From positions 1-20,697 of IMG/VR virus record IMGVR_UViG_3300044960_000150: DNA of 20,697 bases. One strand, 5' to 3'. Under the pieces are notes generated by a model that saw nothing but the letters and a program-made list of their open reading frames with translations, was not told the origin of the DNA and made no database searches. The number at the start of each line of letters is the position of its first letter. Positions within the stretch are counted from its first letter, which is position 1. This DNA comes from a virus. Position numbers and translations under genes: made by a program. Below are positions 3,649 through 20,697 of the stretch, piece by piece.

Positions 3649-5637
3649 ATGAGTGAACCGTGGTGGATCACAGGCGACAGCCTGGATGTGGTCCGACAGC
3701 TGCCCGACGAGAGCATCGACCTCGTCGTCACGAGCCCGCCGTACCTGCGGAAGGTGAGCTACCTGCCGCCGGACCACCCCGAGAAGGAGCGCGAGCTCGG
3801 CACCGAGGAGCGGCCGGTGGACTTCATCGAGGCGCTGCTGACGCACGCCGACGAGTGGTTTCGCGTTCTGCGGCCTGGAGGGTCCATCGCCATCGACCTC
3901 GGGGACACGTTCTGCGCTGACACCGAGACGGAGATCCTCTCCCGAGACGGGTGGAAGACCTGGGACTCCTTGGCGGAAGGTGACGAGGTGCTCACCCTCA
4001 ACCCGGACAGCGGGCTGGCCGAGTGGCAGGCGGTCCAGCGGGTGAACGTGTTCGAGCCAGCTCGCCGACGCATGTTGCGAATCGAAGGCCGTTCGATGTC
4101 CGCCCTGGTCACCGCCGACCACCGTTGGCTGGTGGAGCAGCGGATCGGCACCACGGCCTCTCGCCGAGTTGAGCGCCAGATTCGCACGTCGGTGGAGTTG
4201 ACGCTGGACTCGTCCGTGCCTGTGGCGGCACCTTGCGCCTCGCTGCCCACCGAGCCGAAGTTCTCCGACGCCTTCGTGGAGGCGGTGGCCTGGTACTGGA
4301 CCAAGGGGCATGACCGGAAGCCCGGCGTTGGGCGCACCGAAACCACAGGGGCCTACATCGTCCAATCGAACCGCGTGAACTCGACCAACGTCCTCCGGAT
4401 CAGGGCGTGCTTGACTGAGCTGTTCGGTCCGCCCGTCGATCGGCTTCCTGGGGTCAAGGGAGTTGGCCCGGCTTGGCGGGAGGTCGTGTGGCCAAGCGCC
4501 CCCGACAAGACGGAGTTCCGGCTCAACGCTGCTGCGGCTCGACTGCTGCGAGAGGTGGCACCGGATCGTACTCCTATGGTCGGCTGGCTCTCGCAGCTGA
4601 CACAGGCCCAGTTGGACCTGTTCATTGAGCGGAGCATCGACGCCGATGGGCAACGGACTAAGCGAGGAGTCGGGTTTGCCCAGAAGGACCGCGCCCGAGC
4701 CGATGTGTTCCTGGCGGCCTGCCTCATGGCTGGCCGGTCCGCCAGCCTCCGGCGTGTTGGCCGGTGTGAGATGTGGCATGTCTCGGTCAACACCGTGGCT
4801 CGCCGGAAGCCCCTGCGCCAGGAGTCTGTCGAGTGGGTCGAATATGACGGCATCGTGTGGTGTCCGACGACCCCGAACGGGACCTGGCTCGCTCGTCGCC
4901 GAGGGACCACGTACTTCACGGGGAACTCCGGCTCGGGCGGGGCAGGCGGCGACCACAACCCTGGCGGGCTGAAGGAGGAGCAGCGTAAGTACGCCGGCAC
5001 GGCCGCGGCCAAGCGCAAGCACCCCGACGCGTGGCCAGGCGCCAAGAGCCTGTGCATGATCCCCGAGGCGTTCCGTCTGGGGCTGGCCTACGGGAAAAAC
5101 CCGCTGTGCTTCGACGGGCCGAGCGGTTGCACCGAGCACGAGAAGTGGCTGGTCCGCAACGTCGTGCGCCTGTGCCAGCGCAACCCGAAGCCGGGGCGCC
5201 AGGGCGACAAGTTCTGGCCGGCGACGACAGATCTCGTGGTGGCGTGCAAGAGCAGCGAGCGCTACTGGTACGAAGACATGCCGAACCCGAGCCTCGTCGA
5301 GCACGCCCGGCGCGGTGCGAGCGCTCCGAGCTACCCGAAGGACTGGTGGGTCTACAAGAACCGTGGGACGCCGGGCCATCCCGCCAGCTGGCCCCACGAG
5401 ATCATCACGCCGCTGGTGCTGGCGATGACGCCGTCGAACGGCGTGGTACTCGATCCTTTCGCCGGGGCCGGCATGAGCGTCCGCTGCGCGAGCGATCACG
5501 GCCGCATGGGCATCGGGATCGACCTCAGTGAGGAGTTCTACGCGCTGGCAGTCGAGAATATCGGTATGTACCTGCGCCGGGGGACGCCCGACGAGATCGC
5601 CGTGGCGCTGAAGGAGCGCAAGCAACGGTTTGGGTGA
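3649..5637 (+). CDS. beta-class DNA methyltransferase (N4-cytosine/N6-adenine type) with intein
   Basis: A 662-residue precursor. Extein motif IV, TSPPY (residues 28-32), comes before motif I, VLDPFAGAGMS, near the C-terminus, the order of beta-class amino-methyltransferases that use S-adenosylmethionine to methylate the exocyclic amine of cytosine or adenine. The conserved GDTF/SGSGGAGG and the following KSL..IP segment are typical of phage and restriction-modification members. Residues 89-426 are an intein inserted between GDTF and SGSGG; splicing would give a 324-residue enzyme, a normal length. The ATG at 3649 has AGAGGAG a few bases upstream, and a palindromic operator lies just before it. 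No restriction endonuclease is nearby, so it is probably an orphan methylase protecting phage DNA or marking it (inference). Substrate base and sequence cannot be read from the sequence. Confidence 0.88.
   Translation: MSEPWWITGDSLDVVRQLPDESIDLVVTSPPYLRKVSYLPPDHPEKERELGTEERPVDFIEALLTHADEWFRVLRPGGSIAIDLGDTFCADTETEILSRDGWKTWDSLAEGDEVLTLNPDSGLAEWQAVQRVNVFEPARRRMLRIEGRSMSALVTADHRWLVEQRIGTTASRRVERQIRTSVELTLDSSVPVAAPCASLPTEPKFSDAFVEAVAWYWTKGHDRKPGVGRTETTGAYIVQSNRVNSTNVLRIRACLTELFGPPVDRLPGVKGVGPAWREVVWPSAPDKTEFRLNAAAARLLREVAPDRTPMVGWLSQLTQAQLDLFIERSIDADGQRTKRGVGFAQKDRARADVFLAACLMAGRSASLRRVGRCEMWHVSVNTVARRKPLRQESVEWVEYDGIVWCPTTPNGTWLARRRGTTYFTGNSGSGGAGGDHNPGGLKEEQRKYAGTAAAKRKHPDAWPGAKSLCMIPEAFRLGLAYGKNPLCFDGPSGCTEHEKWLVRNVVRLCQRNPKPGRQGDKFWPATTDLVVACKSSERYWYEDMPNPSLVEHARRGASAPSYPKDWWVYKNRGTPGHPASWPHEIITPLVLAMTPSNGVVLDPFAGAGMSVRCASDHGRMGIGIDLSEEFYALAVENIGMYLRRGTPDEIAVALKERKQRFG
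3913..4926 (+). other. intein (338 aa) in methyltransferase, with degenerate LAGLIDADG endonuclease
   Basis: Splicing block A starts at Cys89 (CADTETEILSRDGWKTWDSL), block B holds VTADHRWLV with the TxxH pattern, and the C-terminal blocks read DGIVWCPTTPNGTWLARR then TTYFTGN with Ser427 as the +1 nucleophile. Gly replaces the common penultimate His, a known variant. The centre has two LAGLIDADG-like helices: FVEAVAWYWTKGH (about 209-221) and FIERSIDADG (325-334). The second keeps the acidic Asp333, but the first has Lys219 where Glu or Asp is expected. Splicing is probably intact while homing nuclease activity is probably lost (inference). Confidence 0.87.
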
Positions 5638-9821: not shown

Positions 9822-10676
9822 ATGGCTGAGCCGCAGCTCGGGCCGTGTGGCCCCTGGATCGACGAAGACGCCGTCACGGCGTGCTGTGACGGTCTCGTGG
9901 AGACAGTCGACCCGACCCTGATGGCTCAGGCCATCGCGATGTCGACGAACATCCTGTTCCGGCTCTCGGGCCGGCAATTCCCCGGGATCTGCGAACGCAC
10001 TGTGCGCCCGTGCTTCGGGGACAACTGTGGGTGCGGGGTGGACCGCTTCGACCGCCTCCGCTACGGCTGGGACGGGATGAACGACTGGCCGTGGCAGTTC
10101 CCGACGTGGCCCGTGCTGATCGGCGGCGAGATGTTCAACGTCGGCTGCTGCGGCGGCCGGTGCCACCTGGAGTGCGTCACGCTCCCGTCGCCCGTGAGCT
10201 CGGTCACCGAGGTCGTTATCGACGGAGTGGTGCTCGACCCGAGCGCCTACCGGGTGGTGCAGTACCGGCAGCTGTGCCGCGTGGACGGCGGGAGCTGGCC
10301 GTGCTCGCAGGACTACACGAAGGACTCGTCGCCCGGGAGCCCCGACGCGGTGGGGTCGTGGCAGATCACCTACAGCTACGGGCGCGGCCCGGGGATCGAT
10401 GGGCAGATGGCGGCGGCAATCTTCGCTTGTGAGATCGCGAAGGCTCGATGCGGTGCCGACAACTGCGTACTGCCGCAACGACTGAAGGAGATCGTGCGCG
10501 ATGGTGTGACGATGGAGTTCGCGGACGCCCTGGACTTTCTGACGGTCACGAAGCCGCCGCGGGTGGGCATCTACGAGGTCGACATGTGGCTGCGCTCGGT
10601 GAACCCCGAGGGCCTCCAGCGCCGGGCCACGGTACGTCGAGTGGACCAGCCGAAACGCTGGAGGGAGTTCACGTGA
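9822..10676 (+). CDS. head-to-tail connector (adaptor)
   Basis: A 284-residue protein resembling actinobacteriophage head-to-tail adaptors: GPCGPWIDEDAVTACC at the start, a helical segment MAQAIAMSTNILFRLSGRQFPG (the 'a...as..ly.lsGrqFpG' motif), a cysteine-rich centre (CFGDNCGCGV, FNVGCCGGRC), strands around VIDGVVLDPSAYRV, and a helical end (MAAAIFACEIAKARCGADNC). Adaptors form the ring under the portal that closes the head after packaging. Sixteen cysteines are present, unusual for a cytoplasmically assembled protein. It is the first gene of the structural block after the ssb terminator, and its stop overlaps the next start (GTGA 10673-10676). Confidence 0.72.
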   Translation: MAEPQLGPCGPWIDEDAVTACCDGLVETVDPTLMAQAIAMSTNILFRLSGRQFPGICERTVRPCFGDNCGCGVDRFDRLRYGWDGMNDWPWQFPTWPVLIGGEMFNVGCCGGRCHLECVTLPSPVSSVTEVVIDGVVLDPSAYRVVQYRQLCRVDGGSWPCSQDYTKDSSPGSPDAVGSWQITYSYGRGPGIDGQMAAAIFACEIAKARCGADNCVLPQRLKEIVRDGVTMEFADALDFLTVTKPPRVGIYEVDMWLRSVNPEGLQRRATVRRVDQPKRWREFT

Positions 10677-12111: not shown

Positions 12112-12434
12112 CACTCGGGCTGGCGTTCTGGATCGTCAACAACGCTCTGGACGTCGATGGACGCCTGATTGCCCGAGGGCGGCGGCTGATGGAGCTCACG
12201 GCCGTCGAAGCACTCAACTTCGCCTACAGCGAGCTCGTCAAGAACGCCGACGGGAAGCAGAAGCGTCGCCTCGATGACGCCCTGGCCGGCAAGATCGGCG
12301 GCAGGGGTGGCTACATCGTGGACGACCCCGATCTCCCCGCGTCCCTCCAGGGCATCGAGGCCCCGGATTGGTGGGACCCGTACCATGATCCGTGGGAAAC
12401 TGCCCACCGGGTTCGTGATGTGGAGATCACCTGA
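12093..12434 (+). CDS. tail assembly chaperone, -1 frameshift extension (T-like)
   Basis: The -1 frame relative to the chaperone gene is open across its stop and reads APYRVALGLAFWIVNNALDV, then ELTAVEALNFAYSELVKNADGKQKRRLDDALAG, then a tail with DWWDPYHDPWE. Aromatic/acidic ends such as this are common in the T domains of actinobacteriophage chaperones. The first ATG in the frame, at 12189, would lose the first 30 residues and has no ribosome binding site, so production by frameshifting from the upstream gene is more likely than independent initiation. The stop codon abuts the ATG of the tape measure gene. Confidence 0.65.
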   Translation, partial: GAPYRVALGLAFWIVNNALDVDGRLIARGRRLMELTAVEALNFAYSELVKNADGKQKRRLDDALAGKIGGRGGYIVDDPDLPASLQGIEAPDWWDPYHDPWETAHRVRDVEIT

Positions 12435-15400
12435 ATGTCGAACGTCGTAGGGACCGCCCTCATCCGAGTGATCCCGGACACGTCCGGGTTCTCGGCGCAG
12501 CTGAGCGCACAGCTGCAGGGTGCTACGACCGCGGGCGCATCCGGGGCCAACCGGCTCTCGTCGGCCTTCGCTGCCTTCGGGGCGCAGCTGGACACCGTCG
12601 CGCTGAAGGCGAAGACGCTCGGGGCGACCATGACGTCCGCCTTCACGATCCCGCTCGGGATCCTGTCGGGGGCCGGGATCAAGACGGCGCTCGACTTCGA
12701 GAACGCCATGCTACAGGTCAAGGCTGTGCTGGCCGCGACGGGCGATCTCAGCGAGAACGAGATCGCCGGACAGATGGAGTTCCTGACGCAGAAGGCTCGG
12801 GAGTTCGGTCGAGAGGGGCAGTTCTCGGCCGTCCAGGTGGCGGAGGGGTTCAACTACATTGCGCGTGCCGGCCTGAGCGCCAACGAAGTCACGGCGGCCA
12901 TGTCGGCGATCCTGAACGTGGCCACGGCTGAACAGATCGACCTCGCCGAGGCGACGGACATCGTGCTGGGCACGCTGAAGGGTTACCGACTCGAAGTCAG
13001 CGAAGTGAACCGAGTGACCGATGTGCTGGCGTTCACCGCTGGCAAGACGCTGTCCTCGATTGAGTCGCTGGGTATTGGCTTCAGCTACGCCGGTCCATTC
13101 GCAGCCGCCGCCGGGTTGTCGTTCCAAGAAACGGCTGCGGCCCTGGGCCTCCTGGAGAACGCCGGCATCAAGGCTGAGCGTGCTGGTACCTCACTGCGAG
13201 GCATCATCGCCCGTCTGGCGGCGCCGTCGAAAGAGGCGCGTAATGCGCTACGCGAGCTCGGCATCGAAGTGGAAGCGGAGCTCGCTGCTGAGATGGCGGA
13301 GGGCGGCGTAGCGATCGAGGAGACACACCGCCGGCTGCAGCAGTTGGGGATCACAGTCTTCGACTCGTCTGGCAAGATGCGCCCGTTGGCCGACATCCTG
13401 CAGCAGTTGCAGGACAGGGGCATGACGGCTGGGCAGGCCTTCGAGATCTTCGGCCAGCGAGCAGGCCCGGCGGCCCAGGCCTTGATCGGCATGCAGTTCG
13501 AGGGGGAGAAGGGCGCGGACGCGCTCCGTAAGCTCACGGCCGAGATCGAGGGTGCTGGTGGTGCAGCGCAGCGCATGGCCGATGCCCAGATGGAGGGGTT
13601 GCGCGGTTCGCTACTCCGGGCGAAGAACAGCTTCGTTGACCTGAGCATCGCCATCGCGAAGTCGGGGGTGTTCAAGACGCTCGCCGATGTGCTGGGCGGT
13701 GTCACCGCGGCCGTGCAGAAACTCGGCTCCATCGCTCCCTGGATGCTGGCCTTCGCCAGCTACGTGACGCTCTCCGCCGTCGCAGCAGGACCCCTACTGA
13801 AGGTGGTGGGGTTCCTGGCGGATGGCCTCAGCTTGGTCGCCAAGGGGATCGCTCTCGTGCTGACGCCTGCGGGGGCCTTCGTGGCCGCTGTGGGGACGAT
13901 CGCCGTCGTGTTGAGGGCGGCCTACGACAACAGTCAGTCACTTCGAGACCAGCTGGCTCAGCTGGGTCGGTTCATCGACGCGGCTGTCTCGCCCGCCTTC
14001 GAGTTCTTCGGTGGGCTGCTCGATGGAGTAGGGGAGGGATTCGCAAGACTCACTGGGACCCTCGGTGACTTCATCGCCATCGGGATCGGTGAGCTCAACC
14101 AGGCCATCGAGAACCTGATCCTCGGGTGGAAGTCAGCCTTCGATGACACGATCCCGGACACGGGGTCAACGCTGCAGGACTTCATGGCGGTCATCGGCAA
14201 CATCGTGCAGCGCTTCGGGTGGCTGCGGGATATCTTGACGGGGGTCGAGACGCCCTTCGCCTCGGTTGACGAGCTGGTCGAGAACACGAGCTCCCACTTC
14301 GGGGTGCTGGGTGAGGCGGCGGCCGCCGTTATCGACTGGCTTGACAGGGCGAACTCCGCGCTGTTGCTGCTACGCGACTCCTTTTTCGACGGTAAGTCTG
14401 GACTGGATAGCTTCACCGCTCGGATCGACAACGTCGTGCGCCAACTGGCGGTGCTGAACGATCAGGCGCTTCCCGACTTCGTGGGCGAGCTCGCCGACGT
14501 AGCGTACGAGGTGGGCCAGGTGGTCGGCCTTGTGCAGGCCTGGGCGCGAGCGCTGCAGGACGCTGGGCCGCACACCCTGGAGACGGCCGAGGCTACGGAT
14601 GCCCTGCAGGGGAAGCTGGGTAACTTCGGTGGCGTCGTCGCTGACGTGCTCGGCAAGATCGAGGACTTTCAAGTCGCACTGCAGGTTGCCGGCGATGTCT
14701 TCACGCTGGCCTTCGGCGGCAAGCTCGGACAGGCCCGCCTGTTTGTCGACATCCTGCAGAATGGGCTCCCAGGCATCGGGGGCGGAGCTGATGAGCTCAC
14801 AGGCAAGCTGGCGGCCCTTGGCGGCGAGCTCGGCGGCATCTTCGGGGGGATCCGCAACTTCGTGGACGCCTGGCGGGACGCAGGCCCGGGATCAGCCGAA
14901 GTCAACGAGGTCCTTGAGGACATGCGCGGGAATCTGGGCGGCGTTGGGGATGCCGTCGCCGGGTTGCTCGACTCCATCGCCTCTTTCGCCACCGACATCG
15001 GCCCCGTGGCGCAGCAGGTGGGCGACTTCTTCGTCCTCCTTCTGCGAGGCGGAGCAGGGTCTGACGAGGCTCAGTCGAGGATTGACCGTGTCCGCGACAG
15101 CTTCGGCTGGCTGGGGGACGCCGCAGCGATCGCGATGACGGCGCTAGATCGCTTCGTGTCGTTCATGCGGGACACCGTGATCCCTGTGGCGATCGAAGTG
15201 GCCTCGGCAGTGAAGGACTTCCTGGGCACGGGCTTCCAAACGCTCACATCTTTCATCCAAACGACACTGATCCCTGCCGCGCAGGACATCGGGCCGCAGG
15301 TATGGGACAAGATCAAGGAGGGAGCCGCCGCCCTACAGGACGGACTCTCGTCATTCATCTCGTGGGCGCAGACGACGCTGGTGCCCTTCTTGCAGGAGTA

Positions 15401-18350
15401 TGGGCCGCGGGCGGTCGAGGCCTTTCGGGACATCTTCGTGGGGGCCTGGGAACTCATCGACGCGACCGTGGTGCCCATCGTCAGGGGGCTGCTGCCCCAC
15501 CTCGACGATCTGGCGGCGATCTTGGCGGGGGCGCTGTTCGTGGCCATCGACAACCTCGGGCCTGTGCTCTCGACACTGGCGGACCTCCTGCGGCCTGTTG
15601 GCGAGTTCATCGGCAACAACCTGCTTCCGATCCTGGCTGTGCTCGCTGGTGCCTTCGTGGCGATCCAGGTGGCTCCATTCATCGCGTCGCTGATCGGGGC
15701 CGCTGGGGCCATTGGCGGCTTGATCGGGGCCATCGGTGGTGTGATCTCCAGCCTGGGCGTGCTCGGCGGGCTCGGGGCGGTCTTGAGCGCCATCGTGAGT
15801 CCGGCTGTGGCCGTGGGTGGGGCCATCGCTGCCGTGATCGCCCTGTTCGTCATCCTCTGGCAGCGCAGTGAGGCCTTCCGCGAGTCCATCATGCAGGCCT
15901 TATCAGGCATCGGGAGCGTGGCCTCGGGGATCTGGGCCACGCTGCAGAACATCTGGGACGTGATCTCGGGGATCTTCCAGGGTGATTGGGGGAAGGTCCT
16001 CGATGGGATGCGCGGCCTGTGGGACGCGCTGAAGGATCAGGTGCTCACCGGCATCCTGGAGCTGAGTGGCGGGATCGTGGGGGCAATCAAGGCTGGCCTC
16101 GACGAGCTCCTGGGGGCGCTGTCGAACATCCCGATCATCGGGCCGATCTTCGACGGCATGAAGGAGTCGCTCGACGGCGTCTTGACGGTAGTGCAGGGGC
16201 TCTTGGAGTTCCTGGCGGGCATCTTCACGTTGGATTGGGGCCGAGCAGGGGAGGGACTGAAGACGGCTTTTGGGGGGATTGCTGATTGGCTCTACGAGCA
16301 GTTTGTCGCGCTGCCGCAACGGATCGCTGGCATCGCTGGCGAGATCGGAGGCCTCATCCTCGATGCACTGGGAAGCCTGGCGAGCAGGATCCCGGGAGCC
16401 CTAGCGACGTTGGGCTCGGCTATCTGGGGCTGGGTCTCCACCGAGCTCCCGCGGCTGCTAGTCGAGGGCTTCACGCTCGCCATCGAGGGCCTGTCGTCGC
16501 TGGCCTCCCTGCTGGGGGACGCAGGGAAGTCGATCATCCGCTTCCTGGTCGATGGGGCGAAGTCTGTGATCACCGGGATCGGCGACCTCGTCAAGGACAT
16601 TCCCGAGATCATCGTTGGCGTCTTCACCGGAGACGACAAGGCCGAGAGTGGTATCGGGAAGTGGCTCACCGACACGCTGCAGGGGGCATGGAACTGGGTG
16701 AAGGACAACATCCCGAGCATCCTTGCTAACGCCGGGAAAGTGATCGTAGAAGCGATCCTTGGCGGGCTGAAGCTCGCCTTCTGGGATATCCCGAAGTGGA
16801 TGGTCACCGAGGGGATACCGCTGCTGTGGGACCTCATCGTCGAGTTCGGGCCGCGGGTCCTCGCCGCTATCGGCAACATCCTGAGCCAACTGCCGAGCTT
16901 CTTGTGGGAAGCGCTGAAGGGGATCGGTGAGGTCGTGTGGACCATCCTCACGACGATTCCGGGCATCTTCGTGGACTTGCTGGGTGATCTTGGCGAGCTC
17001 TTGGTCGGGCTTCTGACTGGAGCTTGGCAGTGGGTGGTTGACAACGGGCCGACCATCCTCGCCAACCTGGGGACATGGCTGGCTGAGCTCCCGGGAAAGA
17101 TCCTGGGATGGCTCGGGTCACTGGGAGAGAAGATCGGAGAGTGGTTCTCGGCTGCATGGCAGTGGCTTGTCGATAACGGACCGGCGCTACTGGAGGCCTT
17201 CGTGGGCTTCTGGCAAGGGTTACCCGGCACGATCCTGGGCTGGATGGGGTCATTCGGCGAGAAGATTGGCGAATGGGTGAGCGCGGCCTTCCAGTGGCTC
17301 ATCGACAACGGGCCGTTGGTTATCACGAAGCTGTGGGAGTTCTTCTCGGGGCTGCCAGGCAAGATCGGTGAGGCCATCGGCAACCTGGGCGACTGGCTGT
17401 TCAACAACGTCTTCCTGCCTGCTACGCAGTGGCTTGCCGACAACTGGCCCATCGCGAAGGAGAAGATTCTTGGGTTCTTTCGCGAACTGCCGGGCAACAT
17501 CGGGTCGGCCATCGGGAACCTCGGCGATTGGCTCTACAACAACATTCTGCTTCCTGCTGCTCAGTGGCTCGCGGATCACTGGCCGGGTGCTCGCGAGAAG
17601 ATCCTGGGATTCTTCAGGGATCTCCCTGGCAACATCGGGTCGGCGATCGGCAATCTCGGTTCTTGGCTATGGGACAACGTCTTCGCCCCGGCGAGGGACT
17701 GGCTGTCCCAACACATCCCGGGGATGATCGATACGCTCGTCAACTTCTTCAGGGGCATTCCGCAGAGGATCGTCGACGCGATTGCTGGCATCGGTGGCAT
17801 GGCGTCGGACTTCGGGAAGACGATCGTCAACGCCATCATCGACTTCGTGAACACGCGGATCATCGACTTCATCAACAGGGTCGAGCTCAACACACCCCTG
17901 GGCACCATCGGGCTGCCCGACATCGGCTACATCCAGCACATCGCCCACGAGGGCGGCATCATCGGTCGCGACCGGATGCGGAAGTTCACAGGCAAGATGA
18001 AGCCGGACGAGGTCCCGATCATCGCCCAGGTCGGCGAGGGGGTGCTGCCCCGCAGCGTGATGTCGAAGCTGGGTGAGAGCGGGTTCGACGCTATCATGGC
18101 GGGGGAAGGGGTGGGTGCCGTGGCGGCGACGCTGGCGCCCCCGACGCCATCGCTGGCCGGCCTCGCTGCGGTCACCGCAGGCACCCCGGCAGTGGCCCCT
18201 CGGGCCACCGTTGTTGGAGCTCCGCAGCCGGGGACCGTGGACCAGTCGGAGACGTGGAACGTGAACATCGTGGGCATCAGCTTCGATCAGGCGCTTGCCG
18301 AACTCCGGGCTAGACAACAGGCGGCGCTGCGTTCACGTCGACGGGGGTGA
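12435..18350 (+). CDS. tail tape measure protein
   Basis: A 1971-residue protein, the largest in the window. Residues about 75-280 match the TP901-type tape measure core (FENAMLQVKAVLAATGDLS, AARAGLS-type turns, VLAFTAGKTLSSIESLGIGF, AGTSLRGIIARL). Hydrophobic helices follow at about 435-500 and 1070-1140 (LIGAAGAIGGLIGAIGGVISS). A long Trp-rich repeat region lies at 1510-1776. The C-terminus has HEGGIIGRDRM and DEVPIIAQVGEGVLPRSVM, the conserved end that is often processed or joined to the baseplate. It sets tail length; at about 0.15 nm per residue the tail would be near 295 nm (inference). No cysteine occurs in the whole sequence. The start abuts the frameshifted chaperone stop. Confidence 0.93.
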   Translation: MSNVVGTALIRVIPDTSGFSAQLSAQLQGATTAGASGANRLSSAFAAFGAQLDTVALKAKTLGATMTSAFTIPLGILSGAGIKTALDFENAMLQVKAVLAATGDLSENEIAGQMEFLTQKAREFGREGQFSAVQVAEGFNYIARAGLSANEVTAAMSAILNVATAEQIDLAEATDIVLGTLKGYRLEVSEVNRVTDVLAFTAGKTLSSIESLGIGFSYAGPFAAAAGLSFQETAAALGLLENAGIKAERAGTSLRGIIARLAAPSKEARNALRELGIEVEAELAAEMAEGGVAIEETHRRLQQLGITVFDSSGKMRPLADILQQLQDRGMTAGQAFEIFGQRAGPAAQALIGMQFEGEKGADALRKLTAEIEGAGGAAQRMADAQMEGLRGSLLRAKNSFVDLSIAIAKSGVFKTLADVLGGVTAAVQKLGSIAPWMLAFASYVTLSAVAAGPLLKVVGFLADGLSLVAKGIALVLTPAGAFVAAVGTIAVVLRAAYDNSQSLRDQLAQLGRFIDAAVSPAFEFFGGLLDGVGEGFARLTGTLGDFIAIGIGELNQAIENLILGWKSAFDDTIPDTGSTLQDFMAVIGNIVQRFGWLRDILTGVETPFASVDELVENTSSHFGVLGEAAAAVIDWLDRANSALLLLRDSFFDGKSGLDSFTARIDNVVRQLAVLNDQALPDFVGELADVAYEVGQVVGLVQAWARALQDAGPHTLETAEATDALQGKLGNFGGVVADVLGKIEDFQVALQVAGDVFTLAFGGKLGQARLFVDILQNGLPGIGGGADELTGKLAALGGELGGIFGGIRNFVDAWRDAGPGSAEVNEVLEDMRGNLGGVGDAVAGLLDSIASFATDIGPVAQQVGDFFVLLLRGGAGSDEAQSRIDRVRDSFGWLGDAAAIAMTALDRFVSFMRDTVIPVAIEVASAVKDFLGTGFQTLTSFIQTTLIPAAQDIGPQVWDKIKEGAAALQDGLSSFISWAQTTLVPFLQEYGPRAVEAFRDIFVGAWELIDATVVPIVRGLLPHLDDLAAILAGALFVAIDNLGPVLSTLADLLRPVGEFIGNNLLPILAVLAGAFVAIQVAPFIASLIGAAGAIGGLIGAIGGVISSLGVLGGLGAVLSAIVSPAVAVGGAIAAVIALFVILWQRSEAFRESIMQALSGIGSVASGIWATLQNIWDVISGIFQGDWGKVLDGMRGLWDALKDQVLTGILELSGGIVGAIKAGLDELLGALSNIPIIGPIFDGMKESLDGVLTVVQGLLEFLAGIFTLDWGRAGEGLKTAFGGIADWLYEQFVALPQRIAGIAGEIGGLILDALGSLASRIPGALATLGSAIWGWVSTELPRLLVEGFTLAIEGLSSLASLLGDAGKSIIRFLVDGAKSVITGIGDLVKDIPEIIVGVFTGDDKAESGIGKWLTDTLQGAWNWVKDNIPSILANAGKVIVEAILGGLKLAFWDIPKWMVTEGIPLLWDLIVEFGPRVLAAIGNILSQLPSFLWEALKGIGEVVWTILTTIPGIFVDLLGDLGELLVGLLTGAWQWVVDNGPTILANLGTWLAELPGKILGWLGSLGEKIGEWFSAAWQWLVDNGPALLEAFVGFWQGLPGTILGWMGSFGEKIGEWVSAAFQWLIDNGPLVITKLWEFFSGLPGKIGEAIGNLGDWLFNNVFLPATQWLADNWPIAKEKILGFFRELPGNIGSAIGNLGDWLYNNILLPAAQWLADHWPGAREKILGFFRDLPGNIGSAIGNLGSWLWDNVFAPARDWLSQHIPGMIDTLVNFFRGIPQRIVDAIAGIGGMASDFGKTIVNAIIDFVNTRIIDFINRVELNTPLGTIGLPDIGYIQHIAHEGGIIGRDRMRKFTGKMKPDEVPIIAQVGEGVLPRSVMSKLGESGFDAIMAGEGVGAVAATLAPPTPSLAGLAAVTAGTPAVAPRATVVGAPQPGTVDQSETWNVNIVGISFDQALAELRARQQAALRSRRRG
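16962..17762 (+). repeat. six tandem 44-45-residue repeats in tape measure
   Basis: Six in-frame units cover residues 1510-1776. The first three are 44 residues long (start GIFVDLLG, GKILGWLG, GTILGWMG) and share W.V.DNGP and end L.P. The last three are 45 long (GKIGEAIGNLGDWL, GNIGSAIGNLGDWL, GNIGSAIGNLGSWL) and share WLAD.WP and FFR.LP. The units are also close at DNA level, so recombination between them could change tail length. Confidence 0.75.
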
Positions 18351-18353
18351 CCC

Positions 18354-20697
18354 GTGTACTCGGGGTACGGCTACTACTCGGGAGTCGAGATCTGGAACAA
18401 CGAGCGCGTGATGGCGTACCTGCGCGGTGCGCCGAACATCGGTGTTCGTCCCTTGAAGCTTCCGTCGCTCTCACTGTCGCGCAACTGCGGGTGCCCCACG
18501 ATCCTGCCATACGTGTGCGATCCCGGGCCGCTGCCCTCGCTCGACTACGTGAGCGCATCAATCGACCCGGCCCCGTGGTTCGACCCCGCGGTTCCCGAAT
18601 CGGCCGACTTCGCTGGCTTGTTCGTCGAGGAGGTCACGCCCTTCGACAGCGTCGTGGACCGCGAGGCCCGCTCGGGGGCAATCCAAGGGGGGTCGCTTGG
18701 GCCGCTTCGGCTCGGGCCGAGGACGTTCACAGTCACGGGCTGGCTCATGGCTCGCACGTGCTGCGCGGCTGAGTACGGTCTGCGGTGGCTGAACGAGGCG
18801 CTGGCACAAACGCAGGGGTGCGTCGACTGCTCGCTGGGTGACTTCTACATGCTGAAATGCTGCCCACCGCCCCAGGACGAGTGTCGGCTGGCCCCGCGGA
18901 GCATCGAGGCAGGTCAGCCTACGGTGCAGTGGAACCTCACGGTGGTCGAGGCGTCGCCGGGCATCTTCGACATCACAATCGACGACTCGGAGCAGGCGAA
19001 CGTCCTGTCCGATCCGCTGGCCGGAGAGAACAACGCGAGCGGTGCGCTCATGGACTGCGTCTTTGCCGGTGGCATCGGGCGGCTGTTGATCCAGAACATC
19101 GGGTCTGGCAGTGAGTACTACCTGACCTTCGACGGATCGACGATCACCGCTGGCCCGAGTGGGCCTTCGGGTGTCGGCTACATGGCGCAATTCACGTTCG
19201 ACACAACGATCTCCGTGAGCTGCCCCGAGGAGCAGCAGGCCATCTACTCGGCGAGAGGAGCCTTGCAGCGATACATCGCAGACACAGGTGGATCCGGCAC
19301 CGTCTTCACGCTCGGCTCGATCGAGTGCATGGAGACGAGGACAGGTGCGCCTGCTACGGACATGGTCCGTGTCATGCACCGCACCGGCCTCGTGTCGGGA
19401 CCGAAGGTGGTCGATCGCTTCGGAACGTGCTGCTCGAACTGCGGCTGCACGATGCTCCGAGTGCAGTTCACTATGGCATCGGAGAGCCCGTACATCTTCA
19501 GCGACATCATGTGGTGCGCCTCGTCGGAGACGTTCCCCGACGAGGAGTTCTGCCTCGATCTCGACCGGATCTGCGAGGACGACTGCGCCGAGACGATCGG
19601 AACGCAGCTGGTCGAGCAGCAGGTGGCGCGGCCGACGTGCGGCGTGACGCTGCGCTATGACGGGTCGTGGTGCGCCTCGGGCTGGGACCCCGCTGAGGAG
19701 TGCCCGCCGCCGGACTGCCTCATTGACATCGTCGGCATCGAGGAGAGCGCCGGTTCGGTCGAGAAGACGCAGAGCTCGGGCAACAAGCCGTGCTACGTGA
19801 CTCTCTTGTCTTCCGGCAAGTGGACTGGTGATGGGTGGGACCCCGCTGACGGGATGCCGCCGGTCGCCTGCGACCTGCGCGTTGGCAACCTCGTGGACTG
19901 CGCCGAGATCCCAGATCCCGACACCTCCTGCCCTAGTGGTCGCGAGACGCGCCAAATCCGGATCATCTGGGATGGTTGCAGCGGTGTGGCGCGGTGGGAG
20001 CCGATCCGCTGGACGGGCTCGCTGTTCGACGCCTGCAAGTGCTACACGATCGCTGAGATCGTGGTCACGGAGCCGCCCGAGGAGGTGGCCGACTGCGAAG
20101 TGCCGCGGGTGTGCCCGGTCGACATCAGATGCGGGCTGGCGTACCGACCGTGGCAGATGACGAGCAGGCAATCGGCGGCAGTCTTCTTCTACCGCTACTC
20201 AGGATCGCCGCCATTCGTGCCCCCGACCACGCCCACCTTCAGCGACGTGCCGAAGACGAACAACTTCTACTTGGAGATCGAGTGGTGCGCCAACGTCGGA
20301 ATCCTCGACGGGTTCGGCGATGGGACGTTCCGGCCGGCTCTGAACATCTCGCGCCGGGAGCTTGCCGTGGGTCACTACCGGGCTGCCGGTAGCCCGCCCT
20401 TTGTGCCGCCGGGTGTCCCGACGTTCAGCGACGTGGGGCTGGCCCACCCCTCCTACCTGGAAATCGAGTGGGTGGCGAACCAGGGGATCATGGTGGGCTC
20501 CGGCAGCGGGACCTTCCGTCCCACGAACCCGATCTCGCGCCGAGACACGGCTGTCACGTTCTACCGGGCGGACGGGAGCCCGGTGTTCTCCCCACCACTG
20601 ATCCCGAGCTTCATTGATGTGCCGAACAGCGACACCGCGTATACCGCGATCGAGTGGTTCTACAGCCAGGGGATCACGACTGGCTTCGGCACCGACC
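18354..20697 (+). CDS. distal/minor tail protein fused to SLH repeats (3' end cut)
   Basis: The frame is open from GTG 18354, three bases after the tape measure stop, to the end of the window (781 codons seen). Residues 1-590 resemble the cysteine-rich distal/minor tail protein that follows the tape measure gene in many actinobacteriophages: YVSASIDPAPWFDPAVPESADFAGLFVEEV, RTFTVTGWLMARTCCAAEYGLRWLNEAL, then cysteine-paired segments (CCSNCGC) and VQFTMASESPYIFS. From residue 594 it changes to S-layer homology repeats: a half unit (RPWQMTSRQSAAVFFYR), a full one at about 628-681 (TFSDVP..GDGTFRP..ISRREL), a second from 690 (TFSDVG..SGTFRPTNPISRRD), and a third (SFIDVP..) cut by the window end. 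SLH domains bind secondary wall polymers, so this is probably an adsorption protein (inference). It has about 36 cysteines. GGGGG upstream may serve as ribosome binding site. Confidence 0.72.
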   Translation, partial: MYSGYGYYSGVEIWNNERVMAYLRGAPNIGVRPLKLPSLSLSRNCGCPTILPYVCDPGPLPSLDYVSASIDPAPWFDPAVPESADFAGLFVEEVTPFDSVVDREARSGAIQGGSLGPLRLGPRTFTVTGWLMARTCCAAEYGLRWLNEALAQTQGCVDCSLGDFYMLKCCPPPQDECRLAPRSIEAGQPTVQWNLTVVEASPGIFDITIDDSEQANVLSDPLAGENNASGALMDCVFAGGIGRLLIQNIGSGSEYYLTFDGSTITAGPSGPSGVGYMAQFTFDTTISVSCPEEQQAIYSARGALQRYIADTGGSGTVFTLGSIECMETRTGAPATDMVRVMHRTGLVSGPKVVDRFGTCCSNCGCTMLRVQFTMASESPYIFSDIMWCASSETFPDEEFCLDLDRICEDDCAETIGTQLVEQQVARPTCGVTLRYDGSWCASGWDPAEECPPPDCLIDIVGIEESAGSVEKTQSSGNKPCYVTLLSSGKWTGDGWDPADGMPPVACDLRVGNLVDCAEIPDPDTSCPSGRETRQIRIIWDGCSGVARWEPIRWTGSLFDACKCYTIAEIVVTEPPEEVADCEVPRVCPVDIRCGLAYRPWQMTSRQSAAVFFYRYSGSPPFVPPTTPTFSDVPKTNNFYLEIEWCANVGILDGFGDGTFRPALNISRRELAVGHYRAAGSPPFVPPGVPTFSDVGLAHPSYLEIEWVANQGIMVGSGSGTFRPTNPISRRDTAVTFYRADGSPVFSPPLIPSFIDVPNSDTAYTAIEWFYSQGITTGFGTD
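20134..20697 (+). repeat. SLH repeat array in tail protein
   Basis: In-frame SLH units of about 54 residues joined by GSPPFVPP-type linkers: half unit from 20134, unit 1 at 20235-20396, unit 2 at 20421-20582, unit 3 from 20607 to the window end. Each full unit has FsDV, the IEW helix, GI..G..DGTFRP and isRr..av..YR. The usual SLH set is three, so the complete protein may hold three units plus the half. Confidence 0.8.

Follow-up and report, generated by a model that had tools for sequence, protein, structure and literature searches.

The window analysed here, 20,697 bases long, comprises an entire IMG/VR record. Its forward strand encodes a putative head-tail adaptor (positions 9822-10676; phrog_783, E=1.6e-53), a syntenic connector block that reaches from the adaptor up to position 12434, a tail tape measure protein (12435-18350; phrog_1272, E=1.7e-99; Pfam PhageMin_Tail, E=2.2e-44) and a predicted distal tail protein of the Dit type carrying an array of S-layer homology (SLH) repeats (18354-20697). 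The order adaptor, neck, tape measure, Dit is common to the window and to the 171-kb contig of another uncultured virus (L083), in which the Dit gene also adjoins the tape measure. Since this order is shared at 33-52% identity (52% for the adaptor), the window is a fragment of a phage that is related to L083 and probably large. Neither L083 nor a 128-kb relative was found to encode a contractile sheath, which fits a siphophage. The virus of L083 encodes about 38 tRNA genes, 37 of them in a single cluster (L094:17690-18273 and L095:2066-10917). Elsewhere in the window (3649-5637) a 662-residue protein carries a C-terminal DNA methylase domain (N6_N4_Mtase) and has methyltransferase-like matches near its start.

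The tail gene begins with a GTG codon at 18354, three bases past the stop codon of the tape measure gene (TGA, 18348-18350), and a G-rich stretch precedes this GTG. The identical start and a similar opening, VY[ST]GYLYF, occur in the relatives L083, L086 and L088. From the GTG one open frame of 781 codons with zero stops runs to the end of the contig, beyond which the 3' end of the gene lies. An earlier note on this DNA had described a single open frame, and indeed neither a frameshift nor a stop codon occurs between 20000 and 20160.

The first 403 residues (18354-19562) correspond to a predicted Dit ring/belt domain. A PHROGs search matched residues 1-173 to phrog_838 (E=7.9e-43), while tblastn against annotated phages returned 65 records, nearly all of Streptomyces or Microbacterium phages, with matches mainly covering the first 170 residues and the gene named minor tail protein. 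Several of these homologues follow the tape measure gene directly (in TurkishDelight and Margaery they are located immediately 3' of the annotated one), and the start of the gene had thus been recognised correctly as that of an actinobacteriophage distal or minor tail protein. In Streptomyces phage phiSAJS1, a Dit-like gene (L007:3968-5335) bears the annotation omega-3 polyunsaturated fatty acid synthase subunit, which is evidently wrong.

The best match lacking SLH repeats (L012, from the 128-kb viral contig) is 42% identical over 403 residues, and 53% identical to the family query in the first 175; the belt domain of the window protein is homologous to its first 420 residues. The structure of L012, standing in for the window protein, was predicted with AlphaFold2 (40 rows, mean pLDDT 76.5) and compared with the PDB. 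By both aligners the best matches were Dits or Dit-containing tail tips, including the Dit of SPP1 (2x8k; Foldseek E=4.6e-6; Z 10.0, 227 residues aligned), the monocin tip (Z 10.4) and, further, p2, 80alpha, TP901-1, Bxb1, Douge and NF5; the nine top matches (Z 8.4-10.4) were all of this kind. The aligned ranges span residues 2-604, and other matches cover a tube-like part at 1-400 apart from a galectin- or lectin-like part at 455-611. Because superposition of the entire proteins gives a large rmsd (about 14 A), which probably reflects a different placement of the domains, the assignment of L012 as a Dit rests on the Z scores and on all top matches being Dits. By homology with this model, the product of the window gene would be an evolved Dit, with the ring/belt domain visible and a galectin-like C-terminal domain predicted beyond the end of the contig.

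Pfam SLH (PF00395) is the sole Pfam match in the window protein (E=2.9e-20; 72.4 bits, the cut-off being 20.8), so that the SLH repeats noticed earlier are confirmed by a profile search. By profile alignment, a leading half-repeat at residues 596-615 (20139-20198) overlaps the junction motif described below. It is followed by repeat 1 at residues 627-678 (20232-20387; 35.8 bits at 20235-20366) and repeat 2 at residues 689-740 (20418-20573; 36.8 bits at 20421-20552), each of which exceeds the curated Pfam cut-off alone and has both Gly29 and Arg43. Repeat 3, at residues 751-781 (20604-20696), was placed by profile alignment; the contig stops after its Gly29.

With the SLH part as query, the same fusion was found in four more uncultured viruses: L083, L084/L085 (apparently a single virus sampled twice), L086 and L088. 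Their complete proteins have 1302-1351 amino acids, arranged as belt, Cys-rich repeats, a six-unit SLH array and a Dit galectin-like C-terminal domain with the motifs CYCEPW...NPFG...IDSR, the same domain that ends L012; therefore, the window shows just the first part of a longer protein. The layout is that of an evolved Dit: the N- and C-terminal parts of L083, L084, L086 and L088 align to the insert-free proteins L012, L143 and L147, and the insert is internal. The statement of the earlier note that the protein ends in SLH repeats holds for the truncated window, but not for the complete relatives, in all four of which the Dit domain follows the array. Its broader reading, a tail protein that gained an SLH module, most likely for adsorption, stands with this correction: the module is not a C-terminal fusion but an internal insert.

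No SLH repeats were found among 62 viral relatives of the N-terminal tail domain, nor, by tblastn, in tail proteins of 50,697 annotated phage genomes, in which the sole annotated SLH match was the endolysin of a Moorella phage. In IMG/VR, a non-exhaustive scan with one short peptide pattern recovered SLH proteins of the endolysin, protease and surface types, none of them tail-like. The proteases include an SLH domain fused to a trypsin-like protease (L133:4001-4756, with a similar SLH frame in L136) and another fused to a subtilase (L137:76-1137). SLH matches in two human faecal records named 'Bacteriophage sp.' (MT835650.1 and MT838551.1; L005, L006) were rejected as precedents, because by eye these records look like pieces of bacterial chromosome, with an amidase-SLH gene beside a purL-like frame. 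Three large Dits of the same family match CBM_4_9 (L070:5998-10545, L068:5998-9285 and L045:5974-8517), of which only L070 is above the cut-off; from these matches, wall-binding additions may be recurring in Dits of the actinophage type.

Residues 429-586 of the window protein (19638-20111) consist of Cys-rich repeats of the form C-P-I-T-L-x-x-D-G-x-W-x-P-x-G-W-D...P-P-x-x-C, with two clear units near 429-460 and 480-511 and an additional unit with a WEPIRW core; relatives of these repeats outside the clade were sought and none found. Two clade members without SLH repeats, L143 and L147, show an unbroken Cys-rich repeat at the site that holds the array in the others (CPITVDCDGSWAPVDW in L143 and CPILLDADGTYTKIGW in L147), which continues as CPITVDCDGSWAP-VDWVLDP...FPPPGC in the former and CPILLDADGTYTK-IGW...FPPADC in the latter. 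In the SLH-bearing forms the first half of this repeat (CPINVQCDVEWRP in L083; CPVDIRCGLAYRP in the window, residues 587-599, 20112-20150) stands before the array and the second half, SWQPIGWALDP...FPPENC, after it, the unit being split identically in L083, L084, L086 and L088. The interruption falls at a D-G-[ST]-[WY] motif, which resembles the DGTF of SLH, and both junctions lie on a [WFY]-x-P motif that the Dit repeat (DG[ST]W.P) and SLH (DGTFRP) share. The array itself opens with the second half of one SLH repeat and closes with the first half of another. It may thus have entered by recombination or slippage at the shared [WFY]-x-P motif, and the half-repeat shift would join both of its ends at one point, as the insertion of a loop needs. 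On the tree one or two changes in the presence of the insert are needed, a single and a double gain both fit, and the nearest row to the window is the SLH-free L147.

In the surface protein SpaA, a pyruvylated ligand is held by SLH-Arg43, SLH-Gly29 and SLH-Trp13, and the glycine is required for a ligand-induced backbone flip (PMC6081394). Counted from the alignment of the five phage proteins, Gly29 and Arg43 are each present in 27 of the 27 units that cover them, and Trp13 is not kept: its column and the adjoining positions hold mostly Tyr, Phe or a different residue. In the bacterial SLH proteins compared, mostly actinobacterial, Arg43 occurs in 48/48 and Gly29 in 45/48 units, and the Trp13 column varies too; the phage units form a divergent subtype. 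The array is under purifying selection: for the pair L086/L088, dN is 0.114 and dS 0.722 in the SLH part, and 0.117 and 0.789 in the belt, giving dN/dS of about 0.16 and 0.15, respectively, so selection constrains the array and the core to about the same degree. A predicted model of the SLH array and C-terminal domain (five alignment rows) had a mean pLDDT of 34.9, too poor to judge the spindle, and it is from sequence that a spindle fold is predicted for the phage array.

Relatives with known hosts infect actinobacteria, and the hosts of the phages with SLH-bearing Dits are probably actinobacteria as well. SLH repeats of this type occur in 67 of 396 Actinomycetota genomes, which makes the capture of the module from a host, as proposed earlier, plausible. 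The bacterial proteins examined have three SLH units each, the phage array six. Among the same 396 genomes the only prophage relative of this tail gene was an SLH-free one, in Streptomyces, and none of the three actinobacterial genomes bearing SLH-free tail-gene relatives (two Streptomyces and Bailinhaonella) has SLH repeats of this type.

Taken together, these data suggest, with a probability of roughly three in four, that the gene encodes an evolved Dit in which an SLH array has been inserted between the Dit domains and is used most likely for adsorption to a secondary wall polymer of the host. The ring/belt and the galectin-like C-terminal domain would build the hub of the tail tip, as homology and the predicted fold of the relative indicate. 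The six SLH units would represent two sets of three, three units forming one binding spindle in S-layer proteins, and if the Dit is a hexamer, as in known siphophages, up to 36 units could be displayed on the tail tip. Their target would be a secondary wall polymer with negative charge, probably pyruvylated, and by binding it they would keep the tail fixed to the wall, either ahead of the true receptor-binding step or at the same time. It is the conserved ligand residues that suggest that this may be the polymer bound by the host's own S-layer-type proteins, as the earlier note had supposed. Inserted binding modules in Dits aid adsorption in other phages, including skunaviruses (PMC10688798; evolved Dits are reviewed in PMC7291167), and the SLH domain of the phage endolysin LysBT1 binds cells via the arginine of its TRAE motif (PMC12285257).

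One possible, though rather unlikely, explanation is that the array binds another target, for instance some other glycan of the wall or the lattice of an exposed S-layer, or that it attaches virions to debris or to cells nearby. The divergence of the phage units would agree with this, as would the binding of the LysBT1 SLH domain to several unrelated bacteria (PMC12285257), but the units retain two of the three canonical ligand residues, and the position within a Dit fits adsorption. A structural role, in which the array stiffens, trimerises or decorates the tail tip without binding the wall, appears improbable. The SLH domain of LysBT1 does also add stability and trimerise (PMC12285257), and the absence of Trp13 and the location of the insert among other Cys-rich repeats point the same way; the invariance of Gly29, with its role in the ligand-induced flip, and of Arg43 argues against it, not decisively, as Arg43 may also serve folding. 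It is very improbable that the product is a surface protein made in infected cells to modify the host, a role suggested for the SLH protein of cyanophage S-PM2 (some phage SLH proteins are read so; PMC2984593), since the fold of the relative, the family and the gene position all indicate a Dit, and from its GTG start the protein begins directly with the Dit domain. An assembly chimera, in which a phage tail gene and a bacterial SLH gene were joined in silico where the contig ends, can hardly be credited. The SLH part does occupy the extreme end of the contig, and no other viral contig was found to contain the 3' end of the window. But independent full-length relatives in other records (L083, L084/L085, L086 and L088) share this fusion, with the repeat split in the same way and at the same position; the reading frame is kept, and GC3 and the use of synonymous codons are uniform along the gene. 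For these reasons an assembly join was rejected.

The preferred reading, an SLH array inserted in an evolved Dit for adsorption, places the protein close to the evolved Dits with carbohydrate-binding modules (CBMs) of Lactobacillus phage J-1 and the lactococcal skunaviruses (PMC10688798, PMC7291167). In both cases the insert is internal, the N- and C-terminal parts align with an insert-free form, and the two forms coexist among relatives; the insert is a wall-binding module in those phages, and here it is predicted from its family to bind glycans. The CBMs, however, are located in galectin loops, whereas the SLH array lies within the Cys-rich repeat region between the belt and galectin-like domains, the hosts are probably actinobacteria, and the role of the SLH units is a predicted one. 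The phrog_838 'minor tail proteins' of actinophages (TurkishDelight gp29, Margaery, Saccharomonospora phage PIS 136) share the N-terminal domain, the position after the tape measure, a Cys-rich linker and a Dit-type C-terminal part, but have about 440-630 amino acids and, among the 62 viral relatives, no SLH repeats.

With the SLH regions of S-layer and surface proteins (Sap, SpaA and the actinobacterial three-SLH proteins) the array shares the SLH profile, Gly29, Arg43 and the DGTFRP motif. It differs in having six units set half a repeat out of register, with both ends meeting at one site, in its location inside a predicted virion protein, and in having Tyr, Phe or another residue for Trp13. 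The SLH-bearing endolysins (LysBT1, PMC12285257; that of Moorella phage MTATph1) are likewise phage proteins that use SLH to reach the wall, but they are lysis enzymes with a single C-terminal SLH and without a tail part. Such endolysins are not rare in viral contigs, as Amidase_3, Amidase_2 or CHAP-like enzymes with a single C-terminal SLH were seen in IMG/VR (L123, L125, L127, L135, L138). The 2025 paper on LysBT1 states that no SLH endolysins had been reported (PMC12285257), although these contigs and Moorella phage MTATph1 have them.

The earlier note knew of no common phage tail family with this layout. As an evolved Dit with an inserted binding module the layout is known, but no published case with SLH was found, and in the freely accessible literature no publication linked SLH to a tail, baseplate or distal tail protein. 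Evolved Dits and SLH domains, including those of phage endolysins, were already known, and SLH as a Dit insert in place of the usual carbohydrate-binding module appears to be new. If the proposed role is true, this would be the first SLH-based phage tail adhesin. It seems fairly probable, though less firmly so than the adsorption role itself, that a clade of large phages has turned the anchoring of bacterial surface proteins into a virion adhesion device, with SLH placed in the tail-tip ring via exchange at the motif that SLH shares with the Dit repeats and the virion competing with host proteins for the same wall anchor. In Bacillus, csaB mutants resist phages AP50 and Thrax1-2 (PMC9703825), which depend indirectly on the SLH anchoring pathway; CsaB is the enzyme that pyruvylates the wall. 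With a virion protein that itself carries SLH, such dependence would have a direct physical basis in the hosts of that phage. The insert would also add a new class of binding module to those known from evolved Dits, in the little-studied actinophages. To our knowledge, the SLH ligands of actinobacterial wall polymers are largely uncharacterised, and the phage SLH array would be a ready probe for these polymers.
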